From the NCBI RefSeq assembly GCF_019393635.1, contig NC_057863.1, positions 639,678,306-639,742,305 of the forward strand: 64,000 nucleotides of DNA, written 5' to 3'. Position 1 is the stretch's first letter, and each line of letters opens with the position of its first letter. This document shows positions 19,442 to 63,454 of the stretch, piece by piece. A program made the translations under genes and the position numbers. Origin of the DNA: Dromiciops gliroides (lineage: Eukaryota; Chordata; Mammalia; Microbiotheria; Microbiotheriidae). Below the pieces are notes generated by a model. The model made no database searches and had not been told where the DNA came from. It saw nothing but the letters and a program-made list of their open reading frames with translations.

Positions 19442-35408
<15,967 letters not shown>

Positions 35409-35871
35409 GATAAAACGACCCCCGGCCCCCCCACGCGTGCCCGCCGGACTGAAGAACCTCCACACGCGGCACGAGCCGTCACGCGGCGCCTAGGGCGCAA
35501 GCGCAGGAAAAGGAACCCGCCTCCTAGGGGGCGGACTCTAGGAGAGCGCGTGCCCTGAATATCACTTCAGGGTCGTTCTGCCTTCGGATTGGCTGCGGGG
35601 ACGTATGACTCCTCCCTTGCGTACGGACCCTCCTCCGACGCCGGCAAGCAAGACTAGGGCTTCCAGCAGCCCATTGGCTGCCATTGACTCTGGGGGAAAG
35701 GTGGTCGGGGCGGGGCCCAGCGAGGTCGTCGAAGTCGCCGGCAACGGAGGCCGAGAAGGGATGCTCAAGGGCGCGACGGCCGGAGGCAGGACCCGCCCCC
35801 GTGTCATCACTTCCGCCTAGCAACGGAGCGCGACGCCTCGTTGCTAGGGGACGCCGGGCAGGGTTCCGGCC
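35409..35871. promoter_or_regulatory. Bidirectional promoter between ATAD3 and the unrecognised gene
   Basis: Only 463 bases separate the two divergent start codons. There are two ATTGG (inverted CCAAT, NF-Y type) boxes at 35588-35592 and 35673-35677, and an ACTTCCG ETS/GABPA-type site at 35809-35815. No TATA box is seen. Regulation by these factors is inferred from motif only. Confidence 0.75.
35816..35848. promoter_or_regulatory. Inverted pair of X-box (RFX) like half sites
   Basis: CCTAGCAACG (35816-35825) and CGTTGCTAGG (35839-35848) form a perfect 10-base inverted repeat with a 13-base spacer, ending 23 bases before the start codon of the unrecognised gene. Each arm contains the GTTGC(T) core of RFX X-boxes, which are common in promoters of ciliary genes. 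Confidence 0.6.
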
Positions 35872-35945
35872 ATGGCGGCAGCAAAGAAGCAGGTCCCCCG
35901 GGAGCCCTTGAGCTTCGTGCTTCGCGGGCACCGGGCCCCGCTCCG
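35872..35945 (+). CDS. Unrecognised gene, coding exon 1
   Basis: Encodes MAAAKKQVPREPLSFVLRGH and five more residues, with donor GTGAGT after 35945 (phase 2). It lies in the CpG island immediately after the inverted X-box-like pair. Confidence 0.75.
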
Positions 35946-38900
35946 GTGAGTGCGAGCGGCAAGAGGAACCGGAGGCCGCCCAAGCTGGGCGAGTATTTAG
36001 AGATCACTGAGCCCCATCCACTGAGGCCCAGGGAGTGGAATCAGGATACCCGAAGTCACCCAGAGAATCAGGGTCTAGAGTACTAGCAACCGAGGGGACC
36101 AGGCAAGGCTTCCCGTAACAGGTGGACCCTGTACTGAGCCTACATTCATTCGTTCATTCATTCAACGAGCATTTATTAAGTGCCTACGAGGTGTAGTCGC
36201 TGTGCTAATTTCTGGGGGCGCAAAAACTGAAATAGTCCCTCCCTTCAAGGGGTTTATATTCTACTGGGGCGGATACAATTAAACAAGTATTTAGTGCCTA
36301 CTGTGTGCCAGACACTATGTACTTAGTGTAGAGGCAAAGAAAAGAAAAGCAAAAACTGTCCCTGCCTTCACTTAAATGGGGAGATACATGTAAGTAACTA
36401 TGTATATACAAGATAGGTTTACAAATCCAAAATACATACCAAGTAATTTCAGAGGGGGAGAGGGAGGCCACTAGTAGCAGGTGGAGGAATGCTTCAAGGC
36501 TGAGGAAGTGGATTTACTTAGCCTGGAAAGAAACCAGGAATTCTAAGAGGAAGAGGGCACACTAAACATAGGAACAAGACTGCAAAGGTATGGAGGTGGG
36601 AGATGGAATACCAATTGCAGATAGAGCAGTTTGCCTGGAACATATCCTAAATGAAGTTGAGTAATATACGGTGTCTGGAAAAGTAGGCTGAAAGTTCATT
36701 GTGAGAGACTTTAAATATCAAGCTGAGGAGTTTGTATTTTATTCTAAAAACAGTGGGGAATCACCGAAGATAGATAATTGAGAAGGGGAAGTAACACGGT
36801 CAGATTTTTGCTTTAGGAAGATTTTGTTTTTTGGTCAGCTGTGTGCAGGATGGGTTGGAAAAGGGAAAGACTGCTAGACAGGAGTCCAATTAGGAGGCAC
36901 TTACCATGAATTTTCAGTGATTGGGGTGATTCGATTAAGAGACAATGCCAACCTGATCAAGGTTGGTGACTGGGTGAGTAGAGAGATGGCGAGGGGTATG
37001 ATATACACTGTGGAGGTAGAATTCACAGGATTTTTGGCAAATGATTGGACCTTGGGAGAGGGGAGGAAAAGGAAAGGATGAGTTGAGGACGATGCCAAGA
37101 AGTTTGAAAGAACGGTTGGCTTCAAAGTGGAGATAATGAGTTACATTTTGAATGTGTCCAATGTGAAATGTCGATGGAGATGTCCAAGCAGGCAGTTGTT
37201 GATGTGTGACTAGAATTCAGGAGAGCGATGAGGGCTTGATATATAGGCCTGGAAGTCTTCCTTTGCACAGCCTAGGACTGCACTTCCTCTTCACAACCAC
37301 CTTGTAGAATGCCTCTTCTGCTCCACAACAAAGCTCAAGGGGTTCTTCCCATCCCACTGCCCCCAAGGAGTCTCTCCACATGAAAATTACTTTGTTTTTT
37401 AAAACGTACTTCTGGGGGCAGCTAGGTGGCGCAGTGGATAAAACACCTGCCCTGGATTCAGGAGGACCTGAGTTCAAATCTGGCCTCAGACACTTGACAC
37501 TTACTAGTTGTGTGACCCTGGGCAAGTCACTTAACCCTCATTGCCCCACAAAAAAACAAACCAAAAAACCTGTACTTATATGTAACCACGCTGCCTCTCT
37601 CTGATAGAATGTAAACTCCTCAAGGCTGATATTGTTTCATTTCTGGGCTTGTATCCTTATTGCCTAGCATGGTGCCTGATACATTGGGCTAGACCCATGG
37701 TTTTGGAGGGGCAGAGGACTCACAATAAGTAAACTCCCTCTACCAATGCAGATGAGCACCTGCTCTACCACTTAGATTCTAGGAGTTACCTGGGGGACAC
37801 TGAAAGGTTAGAAAACATGGCCAGGGTCCCACAACTAGAATGGGACAGTGAGAACTTGAACCCGGGTCATCCAGACCCTGAAGAAGATAGCTCTTTATCA
37901 GCCCAGCCATCCTGACTGTATGACTTAATAAAACTTATGGCCACTAGGGGGCAGCATAGTGCATATAATACAAGGTCTAAATGCCGCCTCAGACACTGAC
38001 TAGGTGTGTGACCCTGGGCAAGTCACTTAACCCTGTTTGCCTCAGTTTCCTCCTGTAAAATGAACTAGAGAAGGAAATGGCAAACCGATCCAGTATCTCT
38101 GCCAAGAAAACCCCAGATGGGGTCATGAAGCGTCGGCCATGACTGAACTCAACTGAACAACAACAAAAAGAATACTTGTTGATTGATTGAGGCATAAAAG
38201 AATTACTTGAACCCAGAGGAACTGATGAGATCACCAGGGGAAAAGGTACAGAAATAGAAGAGAAGAGGGCCCAGGGCAGAGCCCTAGGGGACAGAACGCG
38301 GATGGTGATCCAGCAAAGGAGCCGGAGAAGTATAGATTGGACAAGTAAGGAGGAGAATCAAGAGGGATCATTGTCAAAAACACCCCAGGTGGAGGAGGAT
38401 GCGTGGGTAAGAGAAGGGCTGGTCAGCAGTGTTTAATGCTGTGGGGAGGTCAAGATGCCATCTGATGTAGCAATTAAGAGCATTGTAACCTTGGAGAGAA
38501 CAGCTGAAGCTGAAGCTCAGAAGAAGTAAATGGGAAGAGAGGAACTGGAATCAAGAAGCATAGAAGAGTGTGAGAGGAAAGAAAGAGATAGGACGGTCAC
38601 TAGAAAGGGGTCCTGGACTCAAGTGAAGGGGGTTTGGGGGTTTTGTTTGTTTGTTTGTTTTAAGGTTAAGTGAGACCTGGACACGTTTGTAGAAAGCAGG
38701 GAACGGGAGAGAAATAGAAGATTCCCAGGGGCTGGACTATGATCCAAGGGACAAGCCCCAAGAGGAGACTGGAGGTGATAGGATCAAAGACACAAGCAGG
38801 GGGGGCTGACTTTGGCCAAAAGGGTGATCTTTTCATCAGCAAAATAGTAGAAAACATAGAGAGTTTTGAGGTGTAGGGGCAGGAAAAAAAAAAAAGGAGA

Positions 38901-41900
38901 AGGGGATATAAAGAGGACTTTTGGAACAGCTACTGTGGGGAAGTGTGAGAGTCAGTTATGATGTTCCTGAGGCTGGATCCCTAATCCTAACCCTAGGTGG
39001 GGCATGTGGTTTAGTGCAATCTCCCTCCAACTCCCAAACACACTTTTCAGGCAGTGAGGGTTAAGTGACTTGCCCAGGGTCACACAGCTAGTAAGTGTCA
39101 AGTGTCTGAGGCCAGATTTGAACTAGGGTCCTCCTGAATCCAGGTCCAGTGCTTTATCCACTGAGCCACCTAGCTGCCCCCCAAGCACACTTTGACAGGT
39201 AAAATGTCCCAGGTCCTTAGGCAGAAATTCTTACCCTTTCTCCTCTTTCCCCAAACAAGTAAACAAAAATGATTTTATTCAGGGGGCGGCTAGGTGGCGC
39301 AGTGGATAAAACACCAGCCCTGGATTCAGGAGTACCTGAGTTCAAATCTGGCCTCAGATACTTGACACTTACTAGCTGTGTGACCCTGGGCAAGTCACTT
39401 AACCTCCATTGCCCCGCAAAAAAATAATAAAAATGATTTTATTCCCAACTTTGCAAGTTTTCTCTCAGAATCACCCTGTTCCCTGTAGCTGAAAGAGTTT
39501 GGGGGTGGGATGCCTTAGGGTTACAGGTTTGGTGTGAGATCTTTTTGGTCTGGGAGAAAGAGCTGTACATTTGACTTCAGAAATGGGATTTTTCATCATT
39601 CCTTGAGAAAACTGCCTGCAATGAAGGCAGATTCTTGGAGCTTGGCTTTCCTTTAAGATGACAACAAAACTGCCACATCATCACTTATCTGTGCTTTTGC
39701 CTTAACCCCAAAGGGTGAGAGAATGGTCTGTTGAGAGGAGGACTGAATATACCAATATGAGAATTGGGGGTAGCTGGAGTTGGAGGAGGACAGTTGAAGT
39801 TCTCAAGAACCCCTTCAGTCATTTTCCAGTCATGTCTGGTTCTTCATGACCCCATTTGGGGTTTTCTTGGTAAAGGTACTGGAGTGGTTTGCCATTTCCT
39901 TCTCCAGCTCATTTTATAGATGAGAAAACTGAGGCCAACAGGGTTAGGTGACTCACCCACGGTCACACAGGTAGGATGTGTCTGAGGCCAGATTTGAACT
40001 CGGAGTCTTTCTTACTCCTGGCCCAGTACTGTACCACCTAGAACTCTTAGAACACTTTGTAAGAATGTTTTGTCCCTGAAGGAGAAGCAGGTGAACCAGA
40101 AGAAGACAAATGGGAACAGGCCAGGAAGCAAAGAATTCCAGGGTCTTACAGAACTGAGGAATTCCCCAGTGGGTGACCAGTGAGGCTATCCCCATGGCTC
40201 TAATTAGGCCCCTGATAGAACTCTCTTAGTTAATCTACTGCCTCTTCTTGATGATCCTCGCAGACACCTAGAATGTTCTCCACTCAATTAGAACAGAACA
40301 GAAATTCGACTGGGGATGATTTTAAACCGAACATTAAAAGAGGGACAGCAAGAGAAATGCCAAGAGAAAGAACAAAAGGGAGGAAGTGCTTGACATTCTA
40401 AGATAATTGCTTCTGTGTGTATTGTGTTTTTATGAAGAGAGAAACGAAATGCATTTCTCAGTAACACTCAGAAAACTGCCCATGGCCAACATCATAACTC
40501 TCATGAATTAGGCAAGAACCAGATATCTTCAGGCAACCTGGAAAACACTTCATGGACTCAGGAGGAGGAAATGGGTAAGGATGAGTGAACCTGGGCATCG
40601 CTGGGTCACATGGAAGGAGTCACAGCCTTATCCCTAAAATGGAATATTTGTGAAGGGTTTGCCCACCATAGACTGTCCCAGGGGCCACATGGGGAGCCGA
40701 GGTTCTGTTCTCAGGGAGCCTACAATATAATCAGGGGAGGGATTATGACGATGATGATAATGCAAGGGAGGGCAAGACAAGTGCAAAGGAGAGGTCCCCC
40801 AAAAAGGTGCAGTGAGAAATCTAAGGAGTGGGGGAGGGAGAGGAGAAAGAGAGGGAGGGAAAGAGTGGAGATGGAGGGGGAGAGGAAGAGAAGAGAGAAA
40901 GAGAGGAGAAAATGGAGAGGGGGGGGCACCTAGGGGTGGGGTCAGAGTGCAGGGCCAGTGTAGAGGCATCTGAGATGATGCTCAGAGGAAGGACCTTCTG
41001 CAGCTGGGATCCTGCAGGGAAGGGCAAGGAGATAGAGGGCAGTCCCATTCCCGAAGGAACAGTTCTGTTGGTTTGATTTATGTCTCCAGGGCTGAGAGCC
41101 TGGCCGGCTGCTAGGGATCAAGGGTCAGGCAGTGGGTATAAAGGGCTACACGAAATGGCTCCCATTGGTCATCACACCATAGGGCTGAGCCCTACGGCAG
41201 GAACTCTAAACTTGAACATACATGAACTTCCCCATGGACTGGGGGGCATGGAACCAAATCAGTCTGCTATATAATAGATAGACTCCCCCTGCCTTATTTA
41301 AAGCATAAAATAATTTGGTTACATTTTTTAAATGATCATTTCCTTTAATGCAGCTTCATTTCATGCCATCATACTTTGCTTATTACAGAATAAGGTGTTT
41401 AGGTTTTTGCTTTAAAAGAATCATAAACAGGGGCAGCTAGGTGGCACAGTGGATAGAGCACCGGCTCTGGAGTCAGGAGGACCTGAGTTCAAATCTGGCC
41501 TCAGACACTTGACACTTACTAGCTGTGTGACCCTGGGCAAGTCACTTAACCCCAATTACCTCACCCCCCCCCCCAAAAAAAAGGAATCATAACCAAACCC
41601 CAGCCAAAGCCGTGCAGGCTACCCTCTGATACGCAGTAAAGTCCCATCATCTTTACTGTCTAATATGACATGAGAGCACTGACCAGGTTCTCTGAGTGGG
41701 ACTTCAAGTCCTGATTGTCTCTTCAGACCTCAAAGCCATTCTGGGGTGTCCCCATATCTCTGCCAATGAAGGGAAGGCAGAGCTTTGCTGGAAAGTGCCC
41801 TAAGGGTTCTTGGTCCTCTACTGGGCCAGGAAAGGCTGGGATCTGGGTGGGAAGGACTCAATGCCCCATAACTGAATGACACAGAATTCTGTGACTTGCG

Positions 41901-44900
41901 AAATCTTACATTGTGTCTTCCCCCTCCAATTGTGCAGCTGGTCTGTCTTCTCAAAAGGACAGTCCCACGATGGACGACCTAGAAGAAAGTTTACAGAAGC
42001 TGAAGGTCCAAGTGTGCCCACGCTTGGCCCCCAGCTCGAGTCCTGACTCTGATACGGAAGATATCTTTGGTTCAGATGCTGCTGATCTCTGGAGTCCTGG
42101 ACAGTCCCGGTGGTCTGAGGTTTCATGTACCCCACCTCCTGCGGAGGAGAGGGAAGCCCTGCTGCAGGCACCCATGGACTGGGGACGGTTTCTGAGTTCC
42201 CAGGGCTCAGCCAGGCTGTTGGGAAACAGCTCCCACCTCAGGGCTGGGGGCCTTTCAGTGAGGTCCCTAGCTCCAGGCAACCACAGAGCTCACCTCCTGG
42301 GAAGTGAGGTGTCCACCAGTAGCTGCCTGCCATCTGTGGCCTTGGTGATGGATGGATCCCTTGCACGGTCCTCCCCCCCTAAACTAGGGGCACCTCACGT
42401 GATCGGTGTGAAGTCTCTGCTACCTCCCAGGATCCCAGTGAGGTCCTGTTCTCCCCAGAGGAGCAGCAGCTCTCCTGGGGTTCCCAGGGGCAGGTCTCTT
42501 TCTCTCACCCGATCCCATTCTTTCTCCCCTGCTTCCAAAAGGATTCGATGGGTCCGATCTCGCTCCCAGTCTCCCAGGCCCATCTGGAGACCCACCTCAG
42601 CCAGAGCCAATGCTTGTGCTCAGCCCCCTCCTCAGCTCATCCGGCCTGGGGGGGCCAGAAAGAAAACGGCTCTGAGCCGACCATCACGGTCCCGAACTTA
42701 TAAGACAGGGCCCTGGGCTGCCCGCCGGGCCTGTGTACCCCCTGAAACCAGGGAGGAAGAAGCTCTGGACCACTCCTGGAGCCCTTACTGCCTGCCTGTG
42801 CCTGGAATCTCCTCCCCCCTGGCTCAGGAGATGAGCAAAAGGTAACAATCAGAATATAGCTACGGCTCTTGTACTTTGTGGAACCCCTTTCCTAGGGAGT
42901 ATCCCTCTGGAGACATCTAGCAATCCTGGGAGGTAAATGCTGGTATTATTCTCCATCTGCAGTATGGGAAAACTGAAGCTCAGAGGAAGTGACTCACCCA
43001 GGGTCATACAGTTAGAATCTGAGGTAGGATTCCAACCCAGGCCTTGCGGTGGATCCTTGTCCCTGTGGGCTCCCCCCAGGCTTTCCAGTCACATTGGTGG
43101 GATTTTCCCCATAAATGTAGAGTTGACTTCAAAACTAGCCTGGGGTGGGGGTGGGGGGTGGGGCGCAGCAGCTAGGTGGCACAGTGGATAGAGCACTGGC
43201 CCTGGATTCAGGAGGACCTGAATTCAAATCTGGCCTGAAACACTTGACACTTACTAGCTATGTGACCCTGGGCAAGTCACTTAACCCTCATTGCCCTGCC
43301 AAACAAAACAAAATAAAACAAGCAAAAAAAGTAGCCTGGGGTTGTATCCTCATCTTCTGGGGGCAGGCTTCACCAAGGTTTTACTCTGCAAGAGGGGAAT
43401 TGGGGGGGGGGTTTAAAACTCTGAAATGAAGGTTTCTCTCCTGGGCCCCAAGTCATGGTTTCCATCTTTAAGTGGATCTGTCCCATTTCCCAATTTTGGC
43501 CTTCAAAGAAGCAGGGCCTAGAGCCGTTTCCCAGGGGGGCTTCGACAACATCAGCGATGAGCTCCTCCTAGCAGCCAGCATGAGACCCTCAACCCTGAGG
43601 TAGCAGCTGCGTCGACAATCCGTAAACCCTTGCTTAAGGAATGTACTCTGCGTGAGAGGAGGTAGTTGGTACTTGTTGGAATAATGTTTTCTTTTTTCCC
43701 ACTTACACGTAAAAACATTTTTTAACATTCATTTTTTTTTTCCAATTTTGAGTTCCAAATCCCTTCTTGAGACGGTGAGCGATCTGACGCCAGTTATGCA
43801 TGTACAGTCACACCAAACAGGGCAGAGGCCTTTGTGAGAAATGGCCATCCTATCAAGAGAAGAGGTCAGGGGGGCAGCTAGGTGGTGCAGTGGATAGAGC
43901 GCTGGCCCTGGATTCAGGAGTACCTGGGTTCAAATCCAGCCTCAGACACTTGACACTTCCTAGCTGTGTGACCTTGGGCAAGTCACTTAACCCTCACTGT
44001 CCCACCAAAAACAAAAAAAAAGACGAGGAAGAAGCAGCAGCACAAGATTTCAAATGCTCAGTTCAATAATTCAGTAGCTTTTTATCAGGCACCCACTATA
44101 GCCCAGCTGCTGCAGGGCGGCACCCAAGCCCAGGGCCATTTGTTTGACAAGTGCCATCTTGGGCAAGGGAAGCTTGGAGAGTGGCTGTTGGAGTCCAGAA
44201 CCAGAAATGGGGTGCCCCAAGAGCTTAGCCCCCCAAGTCTGTGCCTTGCAGGTTCTTCCAGGCCCTCAAAGAAGGGAATGTGTGTCAGTCTCTGGGGACC
44301 ATGGCTCCCATCCAGAAAGCCTTGACCCGACTGCGTTTGCAGCGCCTTCGTGCCCAGGAAGACTGGGTATTGGAGCTGAAGAGGCAGCAAGAACTGGAAC
44401 GGACCCGAGGCCCCAAGTGCAAGTGGTAGGTGCTATGACCCTCCTCTGGGGCCTCCTGTCTTGGTCACAGGGACCCCGGAAAGGAAGGGATGGCAAGAGC
44501 TGGTACTTTGAGGACACGCCCCTCTGGTACCACCCAGGCCACCCCTGCCCCGCCAGGATGCTCTATTCATGGAGCTCTGAAACTCCTCTCTCCTTGGCCC
44601 CTCCTCCTCTTTAGTAGAACTGGGAGGGTGGGAGGGGCAGCTATGTGGTACAGTAGATAGAGCACTGGCCCTGGAGTCAGGAGGACCTGAGTTCAAATCT
44701 GGCCTCAGACACTTAACACTTACTAGCTGTGTGACCCTGGTCAAGTCACTTAACCCCAATTGCCTCACCAAAAAAGAAAAAAAAAAAGAAATGGGAAAGG
44801 GTTATTTTTTACCCACAGGTTTAAAGCCCCCAAGGTAGTATGCGTTGCATCTTAATATTCATGGAGAAGAAAAGGACCCCTGGTGATGCCCTTTTCTTAA

Positions 44901-47479
44901 GCCTCATCCTGGTGTGGAGGGAACTCAAAGGTTTTCAAAGGTTCTGCTGGTCACCTCAAGCTCCAGCAAGTTCTTCTAGGCTGGAGAACCTTGAAGTCTA
45001 GACTCAGAGACCGACAGGCTGTGCCTGCTGTCTGTGAGCTGGCCTGACAAAGTTGGGGAGGCTGTCTCTGGGCTGGCTCCCCCAGGGCCGACCCCACCAG
45101 CAACATCAAAGGCCCCTGGGGGCGTCCGAGTAAACATCTCTAAATGGTAAACAGTATTTTTTTTTTTTTTTGGTGAGGCAATTGGGGTTAAGTGACTTGC
45201 CCAGGGTCACACAGCTAGTGAGTGTCAAGTGTCTGAGGCTGGATTTGAACTCAGGTCCTCCTGAATCCAGGACCAGTGCTCTATCTACTGCACCACCTAG
45301 CTGCCCCATAAACAGTATTTTTAAAGACCTTGTCCTCAGTGTGAAGACTCTGAGCCCATGGAGACAGTAGTGACCCATTTTCTGCCTCTGCTCAAGAATG
45401 AGGAGCCTCAATGCCACCTTGGCCTGGCCAGGAGGAAGGTGGCAGCTCCTTGCAGCTGTGCTGGGCCCCACCTCCTGCCCTGCTGTCAGCCTGGCTCTAG
45501 GGAAAGTTCAGTCCTGAGATTCCTTGATGTAGGAGCTGGTTCTACTTCCCATTCCCTTCCCCAGAATGGTGTCTAAGTTGGGCTGGCCCACAGGCCTGCC
45601 TGGCTACCTCCTCTCTGCAGCCAGGGGGTGGGCTCTTTGATGTTCCTCCCCTTCCCACCTCTAATTTACACAACAATCTCCAAACCTTCCATCTGTGGAT
45701 TGGGCTCTACCTGATCTCACTTCCAAACTTCTTCCTTTATCCCCAGTAACGGGATGCTACTAGGCAACCCTGTCTCACGGGCAGAGCGCCAGTCGCCAGA
45801 AAGCATCGTCTCTGCTTGGAAGAAAATTACATAGCCCGTAAAAAATGGAGGGCCAGCTGAACTAGGGAGCTGTGGGCTGCACGTGAGGCTCCAAGTTTGA
45901 CTAAACTAAGGCATTGTGCTCTCTGGGGAGAAGTGCTGTCCATATTCCAAGCGGGTTGTTATTTCAGACGCACTCCGTTCTACGCTCTTTCCCAGCTGCC
46001 TGTAGCCCCAAGTCAGACACTGGGGTGTTTGTTCCAGGAGAATCTGGCCACTGTTTGTTACTCAGTTTCTACGGAAACTGTTCATTCCCCAGAGGAGGGA
46101 GCCCCACATAAAACAGCAGAACCGTGTTGGCCCCCTCTGTGGTCGACCGCACACATGGCTGGTCACACGCCTGACTTTACGTGCCATTAGAAACCCCGGG
46201 GAGTGCCCAGCCTGCTGGATGCCCTATGACAACATGGGAACATATAATCCCACCCTAATACCTTGAGAAAATACTTTCCTTCCAAGGGCTCAGAGGGTCT
46301 GGAAGATGTCCGCAGCCCTGCAAGATGGTCTGGAGCAGATATCAGATTTAATGAACTGACTCCTGAGCCTCGGTGACTTCAGCAGATCCTGTGCCCTTCC
46401 CCTCCGCTGGCTAGACACATGCCCCAGAGACAGATGCTGAAGGCTCTCAGCTCTGGGCCCCAGGGCGAAGGGGGAGGAGCACATTCCAGGCACTCCTCCT
46501 CAGCTTCTCCTTTGGCCCCCAGGGCTCTGGACAAAGAGTCAAAGGGATAAAAGTAATAATGCTGCATAGCACATTCTGGGGTTCACCCTCCTCTGGGAGG
46601 TTGTCCAAGCTCCCTTTGCTCAGATCCACTCAGTAGTGTCCCTTTTTGTGCATCAGATCAATTAAAACAGTGAGTGACTGTTTCTGGAACTTCACAATTC
46701 CTCCCTGCCCCACCCCCCCTTACACATGCAGTTTTTGTTTGTTTTGTTTTGTTTTGGTGAGACAACTGGGGTTAAGTGACTTGCCCAGGGTCCCACAGCT
46801 AGTAAGTGTCAAGTATCTGAGGCCGGATTTGAACTCAGGTCCTCCTGAATCCAGGGCCGGTGCTTTATCTACTGTGCCACCTAGCTGCCCCAAGGCAGTC
46901 CTTTCAAACTACATATGTAGGGGCAGCTAGGTGGCACAGTAGATAAAGCACCGGCCCTGGATTCAGGAGGACCTGAGTTCAAATCTGGCCTCAGATACTT
47001 GACACTTACTAGCTGTGGGACCCTGGGCAAGTCACTTAACCCCAGTTGTCTCACCAAAAAAAAAAAAAAAAAAAAAAAGGACTGCCTAATGTGGGATGAA
47101 CAGGTAAGCCATGGATGGAGTGTTCTTCACTCTGGCTCCTACTGTGGTCCCCAGCCTGCCCCTGTGAAGTCGCTCATCCCTGACAGGTGTGTGTGTGTGT
47201 GGGGGGGGTGTATGGGGTGTCCCTACTTCAAGTCCGGCTACCTGTGCTCTGTCACATCTCTGCTGGCCACCACCACTGCTTCTGATTTTCAGGTACGAGA
47301 TGAAAAGCTCCCAGTTCCACTATGAAGCTCACAAACATAACGAGTGGTTGAAGAACAGCCGGGACTCACCGCTCCTCTGTAACTACAGACAGGAACTGGC
47401 TTCCCAGACCCAGGAATTTGATGAGCCCTCCAAGCCTCCCCATCTGGATCCCTTTTTAACACGGAAGGATCATGAGTAA
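35872..47479 (+). CDS. Unrecognised five-exon gene, about 491 residues, RS-rich with C-terminal helix
   Basis: I do not recognise this gene. Five exons (35872-35945, 40438-40574, 41938-42841, 44252-44425, 47293-47479) join with canonical GT/AG borders and compatible phases (2, 1, 2, 2) into one open frame from ATG to TAA. The start sits in a strong Kozak context (GCCATGG). Residues 1-25 are basic and proline-containing. Residues 103-122 form an acidic serine motif (SSSPDSDTEDIFGSDAADLW). Residues about 239-324 are rich in RS/SP. Residues 392-425 look like a charged amphipathic helix. Residues 430-491 hold a W/Y/H-rich module with HNEWLKNSRDSPLL. There is no signal peptide and no membrane segment. 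It is divergent from ATAD3 across a CpG island and convergent with VWA1. X-box-like promoter sites suggest a ciliary or testis gene; that is inference. A splicing-related nuclear role is an alternative because of the RS tract. Confidence 0.8.
36140..37250 (-). repeat. Old L2/CR1-type LINE remnant, antisense
   Basis: Starts with CATTTATTAAGTGCCTAC and contains AAAGTTCATTGTGAGAGAC, GGTCAGATTTTTGC and GGACGATGCCAAGAAGTTTG. The family is uncertain. Confidence 0.5.
37413..37568 (+). repeat. WSINE1-like SINE
   Basis: Full-length copy in intron 1 of the unrecognised gene. Confidence 0.9.
37946..38168 (+). repeat. Longer tRNA-headed marsupial SINE
   Basis: Sense copy ending GACTGAACTCAACTGAACAA; the head is partly deleted. 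Confidence 0.85.
38169..38960 (-). repeat. Old L2/CR1-type LINE remnant, antisense
   Basis: CAGAGCCCTAGGGGACAGAA, TAGAAAGGGGTCCTGGACTC and AGGATGCGTGGGTAAGAGAAG follow the same LINE order. It continues the copy interrupted by two SINEs. Confidence 0.45.
39051..39181 (-). repeat. WSINE1-like SINE
   Basis: Antisense copy lacking a long poly-T. It lies in intron 1 of the unrecognised gene. Confidence 0.9.
39281..39427 (+). repeat. WSINE1-like SINE
   Basis: Full-length copy with exact AAAAATGATTTTATTC duplications on both sides. Confidence 0.92.
39817..40040 (-). repeat. Longer tRNA-headed marsupial SINE
   Basis: Antisense copy with the GACCCCATTTGGGGTTTTC segment; the head is truncated. Confidence 0.85.
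40438..40574 (+). CDS. Unrecognised gene, coding exon 2
   Basis: Acceptor ATGAAG ends at 40437 and donor GTAAGG follows 40574. It is open for 45 codons in the frame set by exon 1, starting EKRNAFLSNTQKTAHGQ and ending SWTQEEEM. The alternative AG two bases downstream would hit a stop quickly, so this acceptor is preferred. It is histidine/asparagine-rich and polar. Confidence 0.72.
40825..40925. repeat. Purine-rich (GGGA/GAGA) tract
   Basis: About 100 bases almost without pyrimidines, between exons 2 and 3 of the unrecognised gene. Confidence 0.75.
41429..41584 (+). repeat. WSINE1-like SINE
   Basis: Full-length copy with a C-run before the A tail. GAATCATAA duplications flank it. It lies about 350 bases before exon 3 of the unrecognised gene. 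Confidence 0.92.
41938..42841 (+). CDS. Unrecognised gene, coding exon 3 (large, RS-rich)
   Basis: A 904-base exon with a good polypyrimidine tract and TGTGCAG acceptor, and donor GTAACA. It is fully open in the predicted frame: 300 codons beginning GLSSQKDSPTMDDLEESLQK and ending LAQEMSK. It holds an acidic serine cluster early and an arginine/serine/proline-rich tract later. The composition is mostly disordered. Confidence 0.8.
42885..43060 (-). repeat. MIR remnant
   Basis: ATGGGAAAACTGAAGCTCAG and CACCCAGGGTCATACAG in antisense MIR order, just after exon 3 of the unrecognised gene. Confidence 0.75.
43167..43328 (+). repeat. WSINE1-like SINE
   Basis: Full-length copy; the tail is a mixed AAAC/AAAT run. 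Confidence 0.9.
43869..44021 (+). repeat. WSINE1-like SINE
   Basis: Full-length copy in intron 3 of the unrecognised gene. Confidence 0.9.
44252..44425 (+). CDS. Unrecognised gene, coding exon 4
   Basis: Acceptor CTTGCAG and donor GTAGGT. The 57 codons run from FFQALKEGNVCQSLG through a charged helix (PIQKALTRLRLQRLRAQEDW and onward) to RGPKCK. A SINE lies about 210 bases after the donor. Confidence 0.8.
44634..44788 (+). repeat. WSINE1-like SINE
   Basis: Full-length copy of the AATTGCCTCACC subtype. Confidence 0.9.
45155..45306 (-). repeat. WSINE1-like SINE
   Basis: Antisense full-length copy. TAAACAGTATTTTT duplications flank it. Confidence 0.92.
46734..46891 (-). repeat. WSINE1-like SINE, left arm of an inverted pair
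   Basis: Antisense full-length copy with a GTTTT-rich tail. Confidence 0.92.
46919..47078 (+). repeat. WSINE1-like SINE, right arm of an inverted pair
   Basis: Sense full-length copy with a 23-base A tail, 27 bases after the antisense copy. Confidence 0.92.
47293..47479 (+). CDS. Unrecognised gene, last coding exon
   Basis: Acceptor TTTTCAG and a frame set by exon 4. It encodes WYEMKSSQFHYEAHKHNEWL, then KNSRDSPLLCNYRQEL, and ends TRKDHE with TAA at 47477-47479. The regular aromatic/histidine content looks like a conserved structural module. Confidence 0.8.
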
Positions 47480-48225
47480 TGGGATTGGAAGGCTGATGAA
47501 GCCATGGGCTGAAGCCTTAGAATTCCCCAAGGTGATCTGGCCTTGTGGAATGAATGGAAAGCGAGGGGTCCGCTGTCTTCCAGAATGAAGACCCCCCCCA
47601 AACCCCAAAGGGGCCTTCCTCCAAAGGAGGGAGAGAAAGAGAAAGCTCTGCTTACTGAATGGACTGAGACTGGAAGGTCCAATCTCGGAATAGAGAAACG
47701 TGAAGCCAAGAGATGTGGGCTTCTCATCCCTGCTGCTAAAACCAAGCACAAAAGGGTTGGCTTCTTCTGGAGAGCTGTTCATCCATTCCTCCACTCTCTC
47801 AAAGGGCACTTATTAAATACCTACCATCACCAACTGCCAAGCAAGATACAAGGCTTAGCTAAGACAGCCCTTGTTCTCATTCGGTTCAGTAAAACACCAA
47901 GTGCAGCTCTCTCCGTGACATGCAGGGAACTCACAGCCTCTTCAAGGTGAGAAGATGGAACCGAGAGAACTAGAATACAGTATTATAAGATGAGTGCCCC
48001 AGACAGCTGCCGAGTGTCATGTGGAGGCCAAGGAAGAAGGTTGTGCCACTTGGGGCCTGGTGGGGTTGGGGGCTGGGATCCCTGGACAAGGCGGTGGAAT
48101 TGGACCTTGAAGAATGAGTAAATATTCAGCAAGCAAAGCGGGGAGGAAGAAAGACAAGAGGCACTGGGGTTGGGTTGGCCATATTGCAAACGTAACTAAA
48201 TAAAAAATTCTGATCGATAGTGTAC
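47480..48225 (+). other. 3' UTR of the unrecognised gene
   Basis: Follows the TAA and includes an old antisense LINE-like stretch (about 47,785-48,180). An AATAAA sits at 48199-48204, with cleavage expected about 15-25 bases later. The exact end is inferred. Confidence 0.55.
48199..48204 (+). terminator. Polyadenylation signal AATAAA, unrecognised gene
   Basis: First canonical AATAAA after the stop codon. The bases after it include a GTGTGTGT-type GU-rich stretch (about 48,260), a little far for a downstream element. Confidence 0.55.
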
Positions 48226-48679
48226 CCAGCGCCTGCCGGTGCTTTGGGATTTATAAAAGTGTGTGTGTTGTCTAACTGTCTGGGGGAAGAGTCCGAAGCA
48301 AACATTTAAACCCCTCGATTATGCTTGTTACTTAAATGTTTGGTTGGGTCGAAAGCTAGGTATCTGGGGTAAGGCAGGGCAATCAGGTTAGGGCTGATTA
48401 ATAGAATCCCAGCTGATGTTCCTGTCTTTGATTGGACGTCATAAAATATACCAGTGTTTTATCGAGCAGCGTTTGTGTGATCATTGCCTGGCAGCTCTGG
48501 ACACAGCGTCCCCAAGGAGGGGCAATACCACAGGACCAACTTTCCCCTGAATGACAATGCTCTGCATCTGTCACAGTCCCTAGAGGCGGTCAATCCAGTG
48601 GGAAATGAGTCAGAGATGACCTCTGGCCAGGAGGTGGCGCTGCAGCCCCAGCCTCTGGCCCTGCACCCTACTTGTTGCT

Positions 48680-48790
48680 GCTGCATTTGCAAAGGAGAAT
48701 GTTTATGCTTCACTGACCGAACCCTACGACTTTTAAGTACATGCCTGATGGTGGCACATGGGAGGTCATAGCCCACGTCCCTGCTGTGCC
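48680..48790 (+). repeat. Old interspersed repeat, copy A
   Basis: GGAGAATGTTTATGCTTCACT and ACTTTTAAGTACATGCCTGATGG correspond to the reverse complement of 49,150-49,265. The family is not identified. Confidence 0.5.
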
Positions 48791-49119
48791 CAAAGACACT
48801 TGGGCGAAGGCCATATTGGGGGAAGACAAGCCACCTCTGGGTTGTAATTGTCCCTAAGTGATGCTCTCTGCCCTGACTGGGACTGGGAGTGGGAGGTGAG
48901 AGGGAGGGAGGTGGACAGGTAGCTTGGGACCAAAGGCTAACAAGAAAACACAAAGGTTTTTATACACACACCCACCCACTCCACACACACAATAAACACG
49001 ACCCACCTTTCTAAGCGCCAGTGCAAAAAGAGGTCAGTCCCTGCCTTCAAGGAGCTTACAATCTAATCACATATAGACACATATATACACGGATTCATGC
49101 AAATATACAATGCCTGGGT

Positions 49120-49345
49120 TTTCACTCATGGCTTTGGGTACAGCATATATATGCTAGAACTTCACGCCAAGACCATGTATATGCCACCATCAAGTGGGTA
49201 CTTAAAAGCCCCCGGAGTCTGAGAAGTGTAATCTGCACTGTTAACATTTTCTCCAACACTGTCTCAAGTCTAGACAACCAAAATAAAAAAGCTCTGATTT
49301 GTAGTGTTTGCCAAACTGAAAATGCAGACACTGAAAATTTCACAA
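49120..49345 (-). repeat. Old interspersed repeat, copy B (inverted)
   Basis: The minus strand reads CTTTTAAGTACCCACTTGATGG, like copy A. Its other end (AGCTCTGATTTGTAGTGTTTG on plus) resembles 2,300-2,360. Confidence 0.5.
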
Positions 49346-49437
49346 TCAGGTAGCAGCATACCCATTACATAATATGTAAAAAATATTATATAATTATATA
49401 AACATATATGACCACATATATTACAAATTGTGGGGAG

Positions 49438-49673
49438 GGGAACTAGGTAGTACAGTGTAATAGAGTTCCAGGCCTTTGAGTTCAAATCTAGCCTCAGATA
49501 CTTACTAGCTGTGTGACCCTGGGCAAGTCACTTCACCCTATTGGCCTCAGTTTCCTCATGTGTAAAATGAGCCAGAGAAGGAAATGGCAAATCATTCCAG
49601 TATCTTTGCCAAGGAAACCCCAAATGGGGTCACCAAGAATTGGACGTGACTGAAAAATGACTGAACAACAACA
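49438..49673 (+). repeat. Longer tRNA-headed marsupial SINE
   Basis: Sense copy ending GACTGAAAAATGACTGAACA. Confidence 0.85.
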
Positions 49674-53239: not shown

Positions 53240-56200
53240 GTGTTGGCTTAATTTATTGTCATTTCAAAGTCTGTTACATCAGTGGGGAACAAGGCACAAA
53301 GAAGCATTCAGTTAGTTCAGGACAGCCTGTGCAAACCCAGTACGTGAATGTGAAATCCACTGGCTTAGCATTTGAACACAGAGCTCTCCCTTTGGAGCCC
53401 GACTTAGCATGAGCTGGGGAGGGATAAGCACCCCGGGGCCATTCCACTGTACCAAAAGGGGAACTATACAGAACAGGGTAGCAGAGTGCAAGAGAAGCCA
53501 GAACCCTTTGTAGGGAGGGGAGGGGCAGAACACTGGAAAACACAGACATCTCCCACTGCCCCCACCCTGGGGAAGTCTCTTGACAAAGTGACCGCATCAG
53601 TTGGATTTTTACTCCAATACGAAGACCTCCAGTAGACCCTTCCAATGACTCTAATAGAACATAACCTCCTTGAGGGCAGGCACTCATTCACCTAGTGTCC
53701 CAGTCCATGACAGACACTTAAGCCTTGGTAGAGTTGACCCAGAAGATTTCTCCATCTTGCTTGGCACAGAGGTGACCTTAGATCCTGGCATGGAGCTCAG
53801 GTCAAGTACAGACCTAGTGACAGCATCTGCCTCTGTCACCTAACCCAGCTGACCAGCCACGACAACCCAGGGAAGAATTGGATTTTTAATTTAATTTTAA
53901 TTAAAAAATAAAGATGTATTTCCTGCCTCAAATGTGAGCCCCTCTTAGTGGTCCTGTCCTTGGCTGCTCTCCTTGGGAAAAAAAAATCTGATGCAATTCT
54001 TGCACCCTTGGGTGTTAGTGACCTCCTGGAGACCCCTTGTCAGAGATGGGGAGGAAACCTGCATCTAAGGAAAGGGATGGATGGAGTCCTAACTGGGGGG
54101 GGGGAATCTCATGTTGGGGGAAACCTTTAGGATTAAGAGGGGACAAATTTAAAAAAAAAAGAGGGGACAAATTTGAGAGGGCAGGGGTCATTCCACTGTC
54201 CCCCATCTGCCGACATTCAGGCCAGCCCTGCTCAGCTTCCCCAACCAATCCCCATCTCCCCTGTCTTCTAGGGAAACCAGGCCTAGGAAAATAGAGACAA
54301 GGTCTCAGGCCAATACCTTCCCACCTCCTCCTCAGCTCTTTGCTTTGGGCAGGTTATCAACCACATTGTGTTAGTACAAGAGAGAAGAGAGTGAGGCTTG
54401 GGTCCTTAGCCGAGCCACCAGCATCACGGGCTTTGGACCAAGTCCTTGAGGGACCGCCCAAGCTGGCCCAAGCTGACTGCTGACCTGCTGGGGGGAGGTG
54501 CCCTTGCAAGGGATGGGGAAGAACTGATGGGGCTCAGAGGGACCAAAGAGCCACAGAGATTCCTTCTTCTCTCCCCAGTCTCTTCGGCCCAGTGCTCTCC
54601 CTCTGGTCTGCTTCCAATGGAAAGTCTCGGCTCTCCTCTGTTATTTGGGACGAAGGGCATCATGGGGTGTGGCTAAGTGGGTCGATACTCAGGAGCTGGT
54701 GTGACTGAAAAGAAATGACAGAAAATACTGTCAGCTCTGTGTCAGATGAGCAGAGCAGAGCCTTTCCCCAGGCGGCTGAGAAAAGCCTCTTTAGGACTCG
54801 AATCCATTTTTAAAAGCCCCATTTGATACATGCAAGCCCTGCAGGACCCTCAGCCAGCAGAGAGGGGCCAGAGACTGGAAGCCCTCCAGCAGGGCAGAGG
54901 CAAGGCCCCAGCTCTCTCCCCTTCAGTCTCCTTTTGTCCATTTCCCCTTCTGCTTTCCACATGCCTAAACCTCACCATTCCTGCACGTTTCACTTGGGGC
55001 CACACCTTCTCCACAAAGCCCTCAGGTACCCCCCTCTCCCCTGAGCTCCTCAAGCTGTATGTACGGGGTCCCGATTCCAAACTCAGGGCTTGTGCCATCT
55101 GCTGCTGTCATCCCCTTCCCCCGCTCACCAGGGTGCATGTGGATGGTCTGGCAGCGCCGAGGCCCGGCGTGGGCTCTGGTAGATGGGTGTTACACACACG
55201 TGGTTGGTGGTGCCGGCGGCCAGGGCCCGTGAGAATGACGCTGTGGGTCTGTGGTGACACGCTGAGAAGGGACGGGGGCCCCACCTGCCGCCGGCACCGT
55301 ACCCTGTAGCCCTGGACGTCTCCCTGGGCCGAGTCCCATGAGGCCTTCACGGTGCTAGGGACCCAGGCTCTGAAAGTAGAGGCGCCCAATCTTGGAGGCC
55401 ACTGGCCCCAGGGCAGAGAGGGGGCTGAGGTCAGCAGAGCCCTAAGGGATGGAGAACCTGGTGTAGAAGGGACAGGGGCGCCTAGAGGTGTCCCATACAT
55501 GTAGAAGGGACTTTAGAGGCTGTCACATCTGACCCCTTCGTTTTAAACATTAGAAAGCCAAGGCACAGATTTTTTTGTTTGTTTTTTGGGTGGTGAGGCA
55601 ATTGGGGGTTAAGTGACTTGCCCAGGGTCACACAGCTAGTAAATGTCAAGTGTCTGAGAGGGGATTTGAACTCAGGTCCTCCTGACTCCAGGACCAGTGC
55701 TCTATCCATTGTGCCACCTAGCTGCCCCTGAGGCACAGTTTTGACTGGCCCAGACACACAGCTACAAAGTGTCTGAGGCAGGTCTTCCTAACTCCAAGTC
55801 CTCATGACACCTCTGCATTAAGTACTCACTATGTGCAAAATACAATGCTGGAAAGGGCAAAATTTAGAGAAGATGGACTGAAACAGCCCCCAAAGATCCT
55901 AATCCACCCCCATAATCACCCCAACTTCCTAATTAATACATGCTGATCCCCTAAGCCAGAAGGGACTGAGAGGTTAAGTGAGTAGTCTAACCTCACACAG
56001 CAAGGAATGAGATAGGGGCAGGATTTGAACCCAGACCTTCCACCCCAAAGGTCAGACCTCTCCCTCCCCTATTCCATAGGCCTTGTCACCTGTAAGGAGG
56101 CACTTAATAAGTGTTTTGTGGAATTAAGTGGAGCTTGCCCCCCCTCCCTGCTAGGGCAAACTAGGGCCAGTCCTGCTTTGTTGGTCTGGCCCCTGCTCGC

Positions 56201-59200
56201 TTGTGCTTGTGTGCTGTGGCCTCCAGGAGGACCCCCCCACCCCCCATGCTCACCTTCTTGTGTACAAGCCTTAGCTGACAGAGCTTTCTCATGGCCCAGA
56301 CTGATAGATGCAGCCACGGTGTACCAGGTAGGTGGTGTTGGGGGACAGGTTGTCCAGTGTGGTGCTGTTCTCTGGGTGGCAGGCACCTTGAGCAGCTTGG
56401 CCTCCCCCCCAGGCAGAAGGGCCATACAGGACCGTCATAGCGGAGTACACCCACAGGTGTCGGGGCCCAGCTCACGTGAAAGCTATGAGGTCTCGAGTGG
56501 GAGATGAGGATCCGGGCTGGGCTGACCTCTTCTGTAGGGCACAAGAGGTGGGGAGAAGCCGAGCCTTAGACCCTCCCCTTCCCAACAGGGGAGTCCCTTC
56601 TAGTAGCCCTCCATTCATTCTATCTGAGGGGGAAGACTTCCTTTGCTGACCCTGAATTCTTCCACTCTGGCCATTTCCACATTCCTCCTCTCTCTGTTGT
56701 TCCCTGGGTGGGGGTGCTCCCTCTTCCTCCTCCCTACATCCTCTGGGTGGGTGGGGGAACATCCCCTTCCATGACCCCCAGCTCTTCTTTCCCTCCCCTC
56801 ATTATTCCCAGGAGTCTCACCTTCCAGAGTAGTGACTTGGGTGGTCTGTGGGGCCAGGTACTGCAGGTTTGGACTCGGGCACCAAGACCACCTTGTAGGA
56901 GGTACTGGGTTCCAGGCCGTCCCACAAACCAGCTGGTCTCATTCCCAGGCAAGTGGGCGGCTCTGCTTGGAGCCAGGGTCAGCACTGGGGGCCACCTCCA
57001 GCAGGTAGTAGCCAGAGTCAACCCCGACAGCAGGGGTGGCCATGGCCAGGCGGAAGCTATGGGCTGTGACCTCAGTGGCGTGGAGCTCCTGGGGCCGCAT
57101 TGCCTCTGGCCAGAGCAAGAGAGGAGAGGAGGAGAGAAGAGGAGGGGAGAGGAGGGGAGGGGAGGAAAGGAGAAGAGAGGAGGGGAGGGGAATGGAGGAG
57201 AGAGGAGGGGAGAGAAGAGGAAGGTGAGGGGAGAGAAGAGGAGGGGAGGGGAGGGGAGGGAAGAAGAAGGGAGGGAAGAGAAGAAGAGGAGAGGAGAGAG
57301 ATATAAAGGGTCAGACAACATCACCTCCAAGAAGCCTTCCCAGATGGGTCAGGTTTCTTGTTTTGACTGCAGCCATTCTCTTCCCCCTGCCCTCCCACGC
57401 CCAAACCCAAGTCATGTCCTCTACTTGAGCCCCACCCTCTTCTCTCTCCCCCTTCTCACCCCCATTAGGAGGCTCAGTAATCAAAGACTCTTCATCCTTT
57501 TCATCTCTCATCCCATGATGACCCTGGCAGGGAAGGGCCAACAAGTGGAGTGGGTTCATTCAATTTTGCACCAGTAGCTACAGAAGGAGTTAATATAGTT
57601 TGCAAACGCCTGAGGCGCTTTTGTTTTCAGTTTTCAGTGGTCAGAGGCAGCTTTATCTTACCCTTCCCTCCTGGCATCCTCCTGAGGAGGACCCTCTGTC
57701 TAGTTCACTCAATAAGGGCTTAGAGATCCCTCTTCCTGGTAAGCCCCTGCCCTGGGGCCTGAGTATATATGACTCTGGGGCCAAATTCTCTGCTTCCTGG
57801 GGACTGTTTCTTCACCTGTTTGATCGAGATCATGATAAGAATGCTGCCATACCCGTGCCCACCTTACCCCCTCCAATCCTGAAGCTGGGAGGAACCTCCC
57901 CAGTTCAAACCCTCCATTTTGCAGATGAGGAAACTGACCCCATAGAGGTTAACTGGCAGGCTCAAGGTCACAAGGGTAAGAAGCATTAGAAATGGGACTT
58001 GAACCAGGTCCCGTGACTTTGGTGCCGTGCTCTTTTCCAACGTACCACGATGCCCTCCTATGTGAGCTGAGCTAGACCGGACCTGTGACTCACCCCAGCT
58101 CCAGCCTGGCAAAAGTCCTCCTGCTGGGTCTGGCTGGGACCCAAGACCCTCGGGCTCTCTCCCTGAGAATGGGCAGAGGATCCAGGTGGGACCTGGTAGC
58201 CTGTGGGGGGTCACATTCCCCCTCTCTCCCCTAGGGAGGGAGAGACTCAAGTCCTGGGTTCCCTGGGCCCTGGCCAGATGCCAAGTAGTGTCTTGGGTTA
58301 TACCTTGTGGCAGTGGGGAGCTATGGAAGGTTTGGGGGCCCAGAGGCTTGCCAAACTCAGTCTTTGGCATGTGTCTCGTCTTGAAGGGCCAGTTTAGAAC
58401 TGATGCAGTAGTTCAGGGCCTGATGGAGCCCATGCCACAGCCCTCACTCCCACTCCTAAGGCCCCCCCGTGTTGCAGGGCATGGGCTTTTGGGGGTTTGG
58501 TTTTCTTTTTGGAGGGCAATGAGGGGTTAAGTGACTTACCCAGGGTCACACAGCTAGTAAGTGTCAAGTGTCTGAGGTCAGATTTAAACTCAGGTCCTCC
58601 TGAATCCAGGGCCAGTGTTTTATCCACTGAGCCACCTAGCTGCCCTGTAGGCATGGGCGTTTACCACCATGCCTGAGAGTGGCTCCTGGAGCTGCAGAAG
58701 TACCCCCTACCCCCCCAGCCCTACTGCCCCCTTTCTTCTGGCCCTGCTGCCTTGGGATCCTCCCTGAGAAGGATTAGTAAGGAGCGGCCCTCTCCAGCCT
58801 CCAGCACATGACCCACCCTCCTTTCCCCACTGCTTAGGGGCCAATGATTAACCCAGAGAGAGGACACAAGAATCCTCAGGAATGTTGGCATGTTCCTGTA
58901 GCCACAGCTGGCCTGGGCTGGGGCTGGGCCAGATGCTGCTGGCTCCAGGAAGAATGCAGGGCCCCAGCCCACCTGCTGGGCAGCTCCTCTCCCCAGCCCC
59001 AGCCCCTCCCTCTGGGGCGGGGAAGGGGGAGAGGAAGGTACTGAAGCCAGCTCCCAATGCTTCTTCTCATCACCTCTCTCTGAGCTATTGCATCAGCCCT
59101 AACTGCTCTTACAAATCATCCTACAAGAATCATCTTCCTCATCTCCAGAGACTAGGAGCACGGCAAATGCCCTGCCCCTAAATCTTCCATAGCTCCCCAC

Positions 59201-62200: not shown

Positions 62201-63273
62201 AGAATAGAAGAAGGGCAGCTAGGTGGCACAGTGGATAAAGCACCGGTCCTGGATTCAGGAGGACCTGAGTTCAAATCCAGCCTCAGACACTTGAACACTA
62301 GTTGTGTGACCTTGGCAAGTCACTTAACCCTCACTGCCCCACAAAAAAAAAAAAGAAAAGAGAATAGAAGGGATTGGTCATTTTTGTCTTTCTAGCTCTG
62401 ACAACTTGAATGTAGTAGGTGAAGCAGCTAGGTGGTGAAGTAGAGCACAGACCCTGAAGTCAGAAGGACATGAGTTCAAATCTCACCTCAGATGTGTACT
62501 ATCTATGTGACCTTGGGAAGTCACTTAACCTAGATTGCCCCAAAATAAATAAATAAATAAATAAATAATGTTTTGGGGTGTATTTTTTTTTGAAAGAAAG
62601 CAGTGGTCACTTAAAAATGTTTGTATGAAAAGCTGAATGACGTTTCCCCCAGTCCCTTGAGGAAGTTCTACCTGAAGTCTAACCTCAGACCCTCACGCTA
62701 CCTGCCCATGGCAGGGTTCCCAGGGACCAACGGGCCTACCAAGGATGGAGCCCCGCAGCTCGGGGACAATAATTTGCAAGTCATCCACATCCACAAAGCG
62801 CAGGTGCTTCTCCGGGGGCTGGGAGGCAGCGGCAGAGAGGTCCAGGAAGTTGCCCCTGCCAGTGCTGACGATGAAAACCGTCACCCCCAGGTCCTTGAGA
62901 GCCCGCATGGGGGCCTGCGCATCGTCACTGGAGCCGCCATCGGTCACCCACACCAGCACCTTGCTCACGCCGGGCCGAGCTCCCCGCCCTGGTGGTGAAT
63001 AGCTGTTCCTTGGCCAGCTCCAGGGCCAGGCCAGTGTTGGTATCGCCCATTAGCTGCTTGGCCGCCCGGATGGCCTCCTGGGCGGCAGCCCCGGAGCGGT
63101 GTTGGTCAAAGGGGAACTCCACGGTGGGCTTACTGCCCACATGTACCATGCTGGTCTGCACGGCCCCTGGACTCAAGGAAGCAGCTGTACCAACTGCCCC
63201 ACAAACTCCTTCACCCGAGAGAATTCGTAGTAGAGAGCGCTAGCTGAGCTGTCAGCAAGAAGAGGAGGTCACC
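53240..63273 (-). CDS. VWA1: VWA1 (WARP) extracellular matrix protein, frame broken at many places; first exon outside the window
   Basis: Exons are read at 63273-62740 (VWA domain), 57105-56821 (FN3), 56531-56254 (FN3), 55369-55129 (FN3-like) and 54704-54673 (tail), with a 3' UTR to about 53,240. KVLVWVTDGGSSD, GVTVFIVSTGRGNFL, FVDVDDLQIIVPELRGSIL, then DSGYYLLEVAPSA and KALSAKACT are diagnostic of VWA1. Family knowledge: VWA1 is a secreted pericellular matrix protein that binds perlecan and collagen VI; loss of function causes a human neuromyopathy. The signal-peptide exon would lie beyond the right edge. At least eight small frame breaks are needed to follow homology, so this is either a recent pseudogene or a stretch of poor base quality. 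Identity is certain; coding status is not. Confidence 0.9.
53252..53257 (-). terminator. Polyadenylation signal AATAAA for VWA1
   Basis: The minus strand reads ATGACAATAAATTAAGCC. It is the first canonical signal after the VWA1 stop and implies a 3' UTR of about 1.4 kb. Confidence 0.5.
54673..54704 (-). CDS. VWA1: Probable last coding exon of VWA1
   Basis: Strong acceptor (TTCTTTTCAG) followed, in the phase 1 frame used by the other FN3 exons, by VTPAPEYRPT and a stop at 54675-54673. It is very short, so this rests on splice context and phase only. Confidence 0.45.
55129..55369 (-). CDS. VWA1: FN3-like exon downstream of VWA1 FN3-2
   Basis: Acceptor TTTCAG before 55369 and donor GTGAGC after 55129. 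It reads STVKASWDSAQGDVQGYRVR, then VSPQTHSVILT, then LAAGTTNHVCVTPIYQSPR after a frame change. The tryptophan strand, GYRVR strand and GTTNHVCVTP strand give an FN3 pattern. As I remember it, human VWA1 has only two FN3 modules, so this is an extra module or a separate degraded fragment. Confidence 0.65.
55570..55728 (-). repeat. WSINE1-like SINE
   Basis: Antisense copy in a VWA1 intron, between the FN3-like and second FN3 exons. Confidence 0.92.
56254..56531 (-). CDS. VWA1: VWA1 second FN3 exon (frame broken)
   Basis: Begins EEVSPARILISHSRPHSFHV after acceptor CTACAG and ends KALSAKACTQEG with donor GTGAGC. The segments GGEAKLLKVPA, ENSTTLDNLSPNTTYLV and TVAASISLGHEKALS lie in different frames, so several indels occur between about 56,310 and 56,460. 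Confidence 0.85.
56821..57105 (-). CDS. VWA1: VWA1 first FN3 exon (frame broken)
   Basis: Starts with the AMRPQELHATEVTAHSFRLA segment after acceptor GGCCAG and ends TTQVTTLEG with donor GTGAGA (phase 1). Homology moves between frames near 56,950, 56,918 and 56,860. The NETSW and SYKVVLVPESKP segments are readable but lie in different frames. Confidence 0.85.
57115..57302. repeat. Purine-rich tract directly upstream of the VWA1 FN3-1 acceptor
   Basis: About 185 bases of GGGA/GGAGA on the plus strand, hence a pyrimidine-only tract in the VWA1 pre-mRNA. Confidence 0.9.
57895..58055 (-). repeat. MIR-like remnant
   Basis: GCAGATGAGGAAACTGA, AAGGTCACAAGGGTAAG and GGACTTGAACCAGG in antisense MIR order. 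Confidence 0.65.
58495..58646 (-). repeat. WSINE1-like SINE
   Basis: Antisense copy. GGCATGGGC direct repeats flank it. It lies in a VWA1 intron. Confidence 0.9.
59070..59520 (+). repeat. L2 LINE remnant
   Basis: CCTCAACCTGGCATTCAAAGC, CACCAGGTCCCCAATGTCTAC and a CT-rich L2 continuation, in a VWA1 intron. Confidence 0.6.
59820..60315 (+). repeat. L2 LINE remnant
   Basis: AACCTTCAGTGGCTCCCACT to CTCCAGGAAGCCTTCCCTGA and CTCTCTGAGGGCAGGGGCC follow L2 3' order. Confidence 0.75.
60332..60490. repeat. Alternating CA/TG-rich tract
   Basis: Imperfect repeats of ACACATGCACATGTATAC type, purine-pyrimidine alternating over about 150 bases. Confidence 0.8.
60628..60772 (+). repeat. WSINE1-like SINE
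   Basis: Full-length copy. AATTGCTATGCTC duplications flank it. Confidence 0.92.
61192..61363 (+). repeat. WSINE1-like SINE with a C-tract tail
   Basis: Diverged head (GCAGCTGGTGGAGCAGTTG). The expected A tail is replaced by about 42 bases of nearly pure C. Confidence 0.88.
61322..61363. repeat. C-rich homopolymer tract
   Basis: Runs of 12 or more C interrupted by single G residues. Confidence 0.9.
61440..62415 (+). repeat. L2 LINE remnant interrupted by a SINE
   Basis: CCAACCTGCCTCTGCAGGCTT and CCAGCCCAACTGGCCTGTT, with a tail AACTAAGCTTCTTGAGAATAG resuming after the SINE at 62,213-62,354. Confidence 0.65.
62213..62354 (+). repeat. WSINE1-like SINE
   Basis: Near-full copy with AGAATAGAAG duplications, inserted in an L2 tail. 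Confidence 0.92.
62420..62568 (+). repeat. WSINE1-like SINE, old copy with AAAT tail
   Basis: A diverged copy (GAAGCAGCTAGGTGGTGAAG) ending in a (AAAT)n run. Confidence 0.85.
62740..63273 (-). CDS. VWA1: VWA1 exon with the VWA domain (three frame breaks)
   Basis: Acceptor CCCAG before 63273 and donor GTAGGC after 62740 (phase 1). It starts GDLLFLL and runs to ELRGSIL. Against VWA1 homology one base is missing near 63,253 (just at the MIDAS DxSxS motif), one is missing near 63,175 and one is extra near 62,980. Between the breaks the residues are well conserved, including DTNTGLALELAKEQLF and WVTDGGSSDD. Confidence 0.9.
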
Positions 63274-63454
63274 CTGGGCAGCTGGGGGGCGTGTGGCAGG
63301 GGCCTGGCGGAAAAAGGGGGGACAGAGAAGGGGTCAGCAATGGAACGACATCGACCATACTCAAGGCTAGCATGGATACAGCTCTTGAAGACTTGCAGAG
63401 TTTTATACACATAGGTTATATCATTTGATCCTCACAACTACCTTGTGAAATAGG

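Follow-up and report, generated by a model that had tools for sequence, protein, structure and literature searches.

We found that a 64-kb forward-strand stretch of Dromiciops gliroides NC_057863.1 (positions 639,678,306–639,742,305; the whole stretch analysed, hereafter the window, whose own numbering is used below) probably contains a real, single-copy, unnamed protein-coding gene between ATAD3 and VWA1. Computed for this gene were an open frame, matching splice phases and an exon chain that scored in excess of simulated sequence, and no second copy was found. Its 3' part (exons 3–5) is probably fairly sound, and its 5' part is unsettled. If real, the gene would add a coding partner at the ATAD3 promoter and would exemplify a gene retained in one mammalian branch and missing from human annotation; if not, the locus would have an ordinary divergent transcript.

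Locus and five-exon model

The flanking genes were recognized by Pfam analysis of the window. ATAD3 is on the minus strand, with a start codon at 35408 and matches to PF12037 (ATAD3_N) at 34908–35489 and 26858–27388. VWA1, also on the minus strand, was represented by PF00092 matches at 62693–63049 and 62925–63239, and an fn3 match in the VWA1 region (55108–55512) scored below the cut-off. These flank matches bear out the placement between VWA1 and ATAD3 proposed in an earlier note on this DNA. The proposed gene occupies the plus strand, head to head with ATAD3, and has VWA1 on its other side.

The earlier note supplied the outer coordinates and length only; the inner boundaries were set in the present analysis and agree with both. 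All five rebuilt exons are on the plus strand: exon 1 (35872–35945; 24 codons, beginning with the ATG), exon 2 (40438–40574; 137 nt), exon 3 (41938–42841; an acidic serine motif, a Ser/Arg/Pro-rich low-complexity region and the alternative start ATG 41970), exon 4 (44252–44425; a charged segment, helical by eye only) and exon 5 (47293–47479; a W/H/Y-containing C-terminal segment and the stop TAA). The spliced model comprises 1476 nt (491 codons and a stop), with GT/AG in 4 of 4 introns and consistent phases. This exact rebuild reproduced the five exons, canonical splice sites, consistent phases and approximately 491 residues described earlier. An open frame across phase-consistent spliced exons, one criterion for a protein-coding gene, was found, and the periodicity value for all five exons joined was 0.009. 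A candidate poly(A) signal, AATAAA, is located on the plus strand at 48199–48204, about 720 bases past the stop; it is non-specific, as the AATAAA/ATTAAA pattern had 4 matches within 47480–49500 (at 47812, 48199, 48991 and 49282).

SINE sequences of a marsupial-type family were represented in the window by 40 matches of at least 80 bp, with a median identity of 88.9% to one copy (range 71.3–100%, query included). None of the 40 overlapped the proposed exons. With this median identity, the previous description of the surrounding repeats as heavily decayed was overstated. The end of the window (63416–64000) is a long GA/TC-rich low-complexity region that has several open frames on either strand.

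Coding signal of exons 3–5

In exon 3, the proposed frame had no stops, whereas the two remaining plus frames contained 12 and 9. Its open frame of 316 codons was slightly longer than the maxima of 311 and 292 codons in two sets of simulations (200 each, 10 kb). A still longer open frame (335 codons, partly GA-rich low-complexity) was observed on the plus strand at 56570–57577, so that open-frame length alone is weak evidence in this window. Across exons 3–5, 420 codons were free of stops. The proposed frame ranked first among six by codon score in each of exons 3, 4 and 5. The score per codon was near zero in exon 3 (0.037), 0.271 in exon 4 and 0.214 in exon 5; the exon 4 value was equalled or exceeded by 1.5% of 14747 open windows and the exon 5 value by 4.0% of 13357, these windows being overlapping and including known genes. 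Three-base periodicity was seen in exon 4 (0.024) and exon 5 (0.001), was not significant in exon 3 (0.319), which accounts for about 70% of the 410 aa encoded from ATG 41970, and had a value of 0.064 for exons 3–5 joined. Support for exon 3 comes mainly from the length of its open frame. The splice sites of exons 3–5 (three acceptors, two internal donors) all ranked in the top 4.13% for their class across the window; for example, the exon 4 acceptor and donor were in the top 2.56% and 3.28%, respectively, and the exon 5 acceptor was in the top 0.58%.

These data bear on an alternative explanation, namely that divergent transcription from the ATAD3 promoter yields a long non-coding RNA here and that the exon chain and open frames are fortuitous or remain from a former gene. 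We consider this explanation unlikely, albeit one to be taken seriously. The lack of periodicity in exon 3 is what a non-coding RNA would show, whereas the coding-like periodicity and joining phases of exons 4 and 5, and the 420 stop-free codons, argue against it.

The same question was addressed with a chain scorer. Its codon usage and splice-site frequencies, like those behind the codon and splice-site scores, were human values, and all these scores are relative only. Run without supplied coordinates, it returned exons 3–5 as the top plus-strand chain in 38000–48000, with a score of 39.2 when exon 3 was cut to 42578–42841 and 38.1 with the full exon 3. The Markov null (n = 200), which takes no account of CpG islands or simple repeats, had a mean of 10.0 and a maximum of 22.7; a chain of 38–39 against this maximum argues against a fortuitous arrangement. 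The top minus-strand chain in the tile containing ATAD3_N sequence scored 51.2, and other window tiles scored 28.7, 27.6 and 24.1, all over the simulated maximum. Real sequence was less permissive of a firm conclusion: among 20 sampled 10-kb chromosome pieces, 4 of 40 strand-stretches (2 of 20 loci) exceeded 38, and such matching scores are consistent with the non-coding explanation. Scores of the control loci were computed relative to the base composition of each, and most of these loci were lower in G+C (0.33–0.48) than the gene locus. The two exceeding loci scored 139.0 and 174.6 (L009) and 38.8 and 61.3 (L027). The longest open frames were seemingly GC-rich low-complexity sequence in L009 and partly simple repeat in L027, and genes are possible in either.

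5' end and the shared CpG island

A CpG island at 35000–35999 (no strand assigned) is a candidate divergent promoter for ATAD3 on the minus strand (ATG 35408) and exon 1 on the plus strand (ATG 35872), whose start codons are divergent and separated by 464 bp. GC content in the island was 0.67–0.72, and the CpG observed/expected ratio was 0.80–0.91 over four 500-bp windows covering 35000–36249 and 0.84–0.91 in the island. Divergent transcripts are common at CpG islands, a general point that also suits a non-coding RNA from this promoter. Exon 1 lies inside the island; its ATG has G at both −3 and +4, a strong context, and its donor, CCG/GTGAGT, was in the top 0.41% among GTs of the window.

When the exon 1 ATG was spliced straight to exon 3 without exon 2, a stop was reached after 60 residues, and in-frame reading into exon 3 thus needs a linking exon. 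The sole single linking exon above the thresholds (acceptor ≥0 bits, donor ≥2 bits, 20–399 nt; single exons rather than two-exon chains) was 40438–40574, that is, exon 2 of the earlier note. This exon is doubtful. Its acceptor was weak (1.6 bits, A at −3, top 7.0% among AGs of the window), its donor had 3.78 bits, and three-base periodicity was absent (0.171). An equal or better candidate was present in 61 of 100 simulated introns, which places exon 2 at chance level, as a non-coding RNA would also allow. The membership of exon 1 in the gene is provisional and depends on this putative linking exon. The previously claimed multi-exon gene was therefore sustained in its exon 3–5 chain, which scored above simulation, and not in exon 2.

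Because exon 2 was at chance level, the protein may start within exon 3 at ATG 41970 (410 aa) and not at ATG 35872 (491 aa); the N-terminus may be either. According to the former possibility, the coding gene is the same and exon 1 is part of a separate transcript or is spliced in another way. ATG 41970 is within the open frame, in the coding frame, and its A at −3 and G at +4 make a strong start context. Against this, exon 1 lies in the CpG island and combines a strong start-codon context with an excellent donor. We regard this other 5' end as evenly balanced. It is a version of the coding-gene explanation and is compatible with it. For the coding gene we favour, we propose that a CpG-island promoter common to it and ATAD3 would drive the two in head-to-head orientation, that its transcription would end before the 3' end of VWA1, and that exons 3–5 (410 aa from ATG 41970) would form its coding part, perhaps extended at the N-terminus by exon 1.

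Comparison with human and mouse

Primates carry a duplicated ATAD3 locus, and the locus has been linked to mitochondrial disease. In a human gene list (PMC9318831), which consists of two runs, VWA1 directly precedes ATAD3C in the first run, and the second run contains ANKRD65, TMEM88B, LINC01770 and FNDC10. LINC01770 is non-coding and is found between TMEM88B and FNDC10; it could be near, its place relative to VWA1 and ATAD3C not being given in that source (PMC9318831). The earlier note knew of no human coding gene at this position and suggested that in primates the gene may have been lost or may be unannotated, either of which is possible. The order of VWA1 and then ATAD3C agrees with the absence of a human coding gene as far as that list goes, whereas the division of the list into two runs leaves the placement of LINC01770 unstated. 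The adjacency of VWA1 and ATAD3C in the first run is also consistent with the non-coding explanation. In mouse, Atad3aos is listed as 'ATPase family, AAA domain containing 3A, opposite strand' (PMC5726758), from which it follows that an opposite-strand gene has been named there. This listing again fits a non-coding RNA; the candidate resembles Atad3aos in being, by name, a gene opposite the Atad3a strand. That 2610204G22Rik might be another name for Atad3aos was considered and found no confirmation. A literature search, limited in coverage, turned up no account of a coding gene in the VWA1–ATAD3 interval. One tentative and rather doubtful possibility is that an ancient mammalian or amniote gene on the ATAD3 promoter stayed intact in marsupials and was lost or became non-coding in placental mammals.

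Relatives and second copies

Exons 3, 4 and 5 singly, and spliced exons 3–5 and 4–5, had no Pfam match above the cut-off; the best match, Nakanori (E 0.18), and Motilin_ghrelin (E 4.1) were below it and were discarded. The 410-aa product of exons 3–5 had 0 matches in PDB at E≤10. Both scans covered exons 3–5, which, in line with the earlier note, could thus be placed in no Pfam family or solved structure. Among the best candidates scored in 3.30 Gb of genome (17 contigs), no second copy of exons 3–5 was found at E≤0.001. Exon 4 had a single genomic place by both protein and DNA search, exon 5 had a single place at E≤0.001, and a protein search of the genome gave no second copy of exon 3.

The next match to the exon 5 peptide (L005, G000:C2:579310200-579310355, minus strand; E 0.64, 43% identity) was rejected as a paralogue: it contained two internal stops and had no convincing exon 3 or exon 4 partner within the surrounding 10 kb, and the match was therefore taken as chance. 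Two further matches, L006 at E 0.66 and L007 at E 4.1, were inspected in their own 3 kb and dropped on their E-values. It is thus highly improbable that the locus is a copy, processed or segmental, of some other gene of this genome, given the presence of introns, the absence of a second place at E≤0.001 among the best candidates scored, and the stops in L005. In viral and prokaryote collections, pattern matches occurred in 3, 26 and 24 stretches, none of which was confirmed as a relative.

Composition and motifs of the predicted protein

The 410 residues include 13.9% Ser, 10.5% Leu, 10.2% Pro and 10.0% Arg. The RS-rich tract reported earlier corresponds to a mild enrichment that is weak against shuffled sequences: the best 60 aa contained 7 RS/SR dipeptides, a number attained by 6.3% of 1000 shuffles, and the total was 15 compared with a shuffle mean of 11.3 (fraction 0.145). 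The candidate is similar to SR/RS-rich proteins in having a serine/arginine-rich tract with SP sites. Unlike them, it is only weakly enriched in RS/SR (15 versus 11.3) and has no dense RS repeats (7 in the best 60 aa); it also differs from the SR protein family in that Pfam revealed neither an RNA-recognition motif nor any other domain above the cut-off in exons 3–5.

Judged by eye, as was the exon 4 helix, the protein would be mostly disordered, with a Ser/Arg/Pro-rich centre that may be phosphorylated at 11 S/T-P sites (7.2 in shuffles, fraction 0.074; five patterns tried, uncorrected). The RVxF-type pattern is a docking motif for protein phosphatase 1 (PP1). Two overlapping matches to an RVxF-like pattern (shuffle mean 0.26, fraction 0.027; five patterns tried, uncorrected) formed one site, KRIRW, which fits the pattern and is a putative PP1 docking site. 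This site is the candidate's likeness to PP1 regulatory subunits, a resemblance in sequence in which the short motif alone defines nothing. The charged segment and the short aromatic C-terminal module may form the binding part. As a low-confidence reading, we propose that the protein would act as a phospho-regulated adaptor, nuclear or centrosomal. Among the remaining patterns, CDK-type sites were ordinary (2 versus 1.1 in shuffles), and both CK2-type sites (4 versus 6.8) and basic clusters (2 versus 3.2) were fewer than in shuffles.
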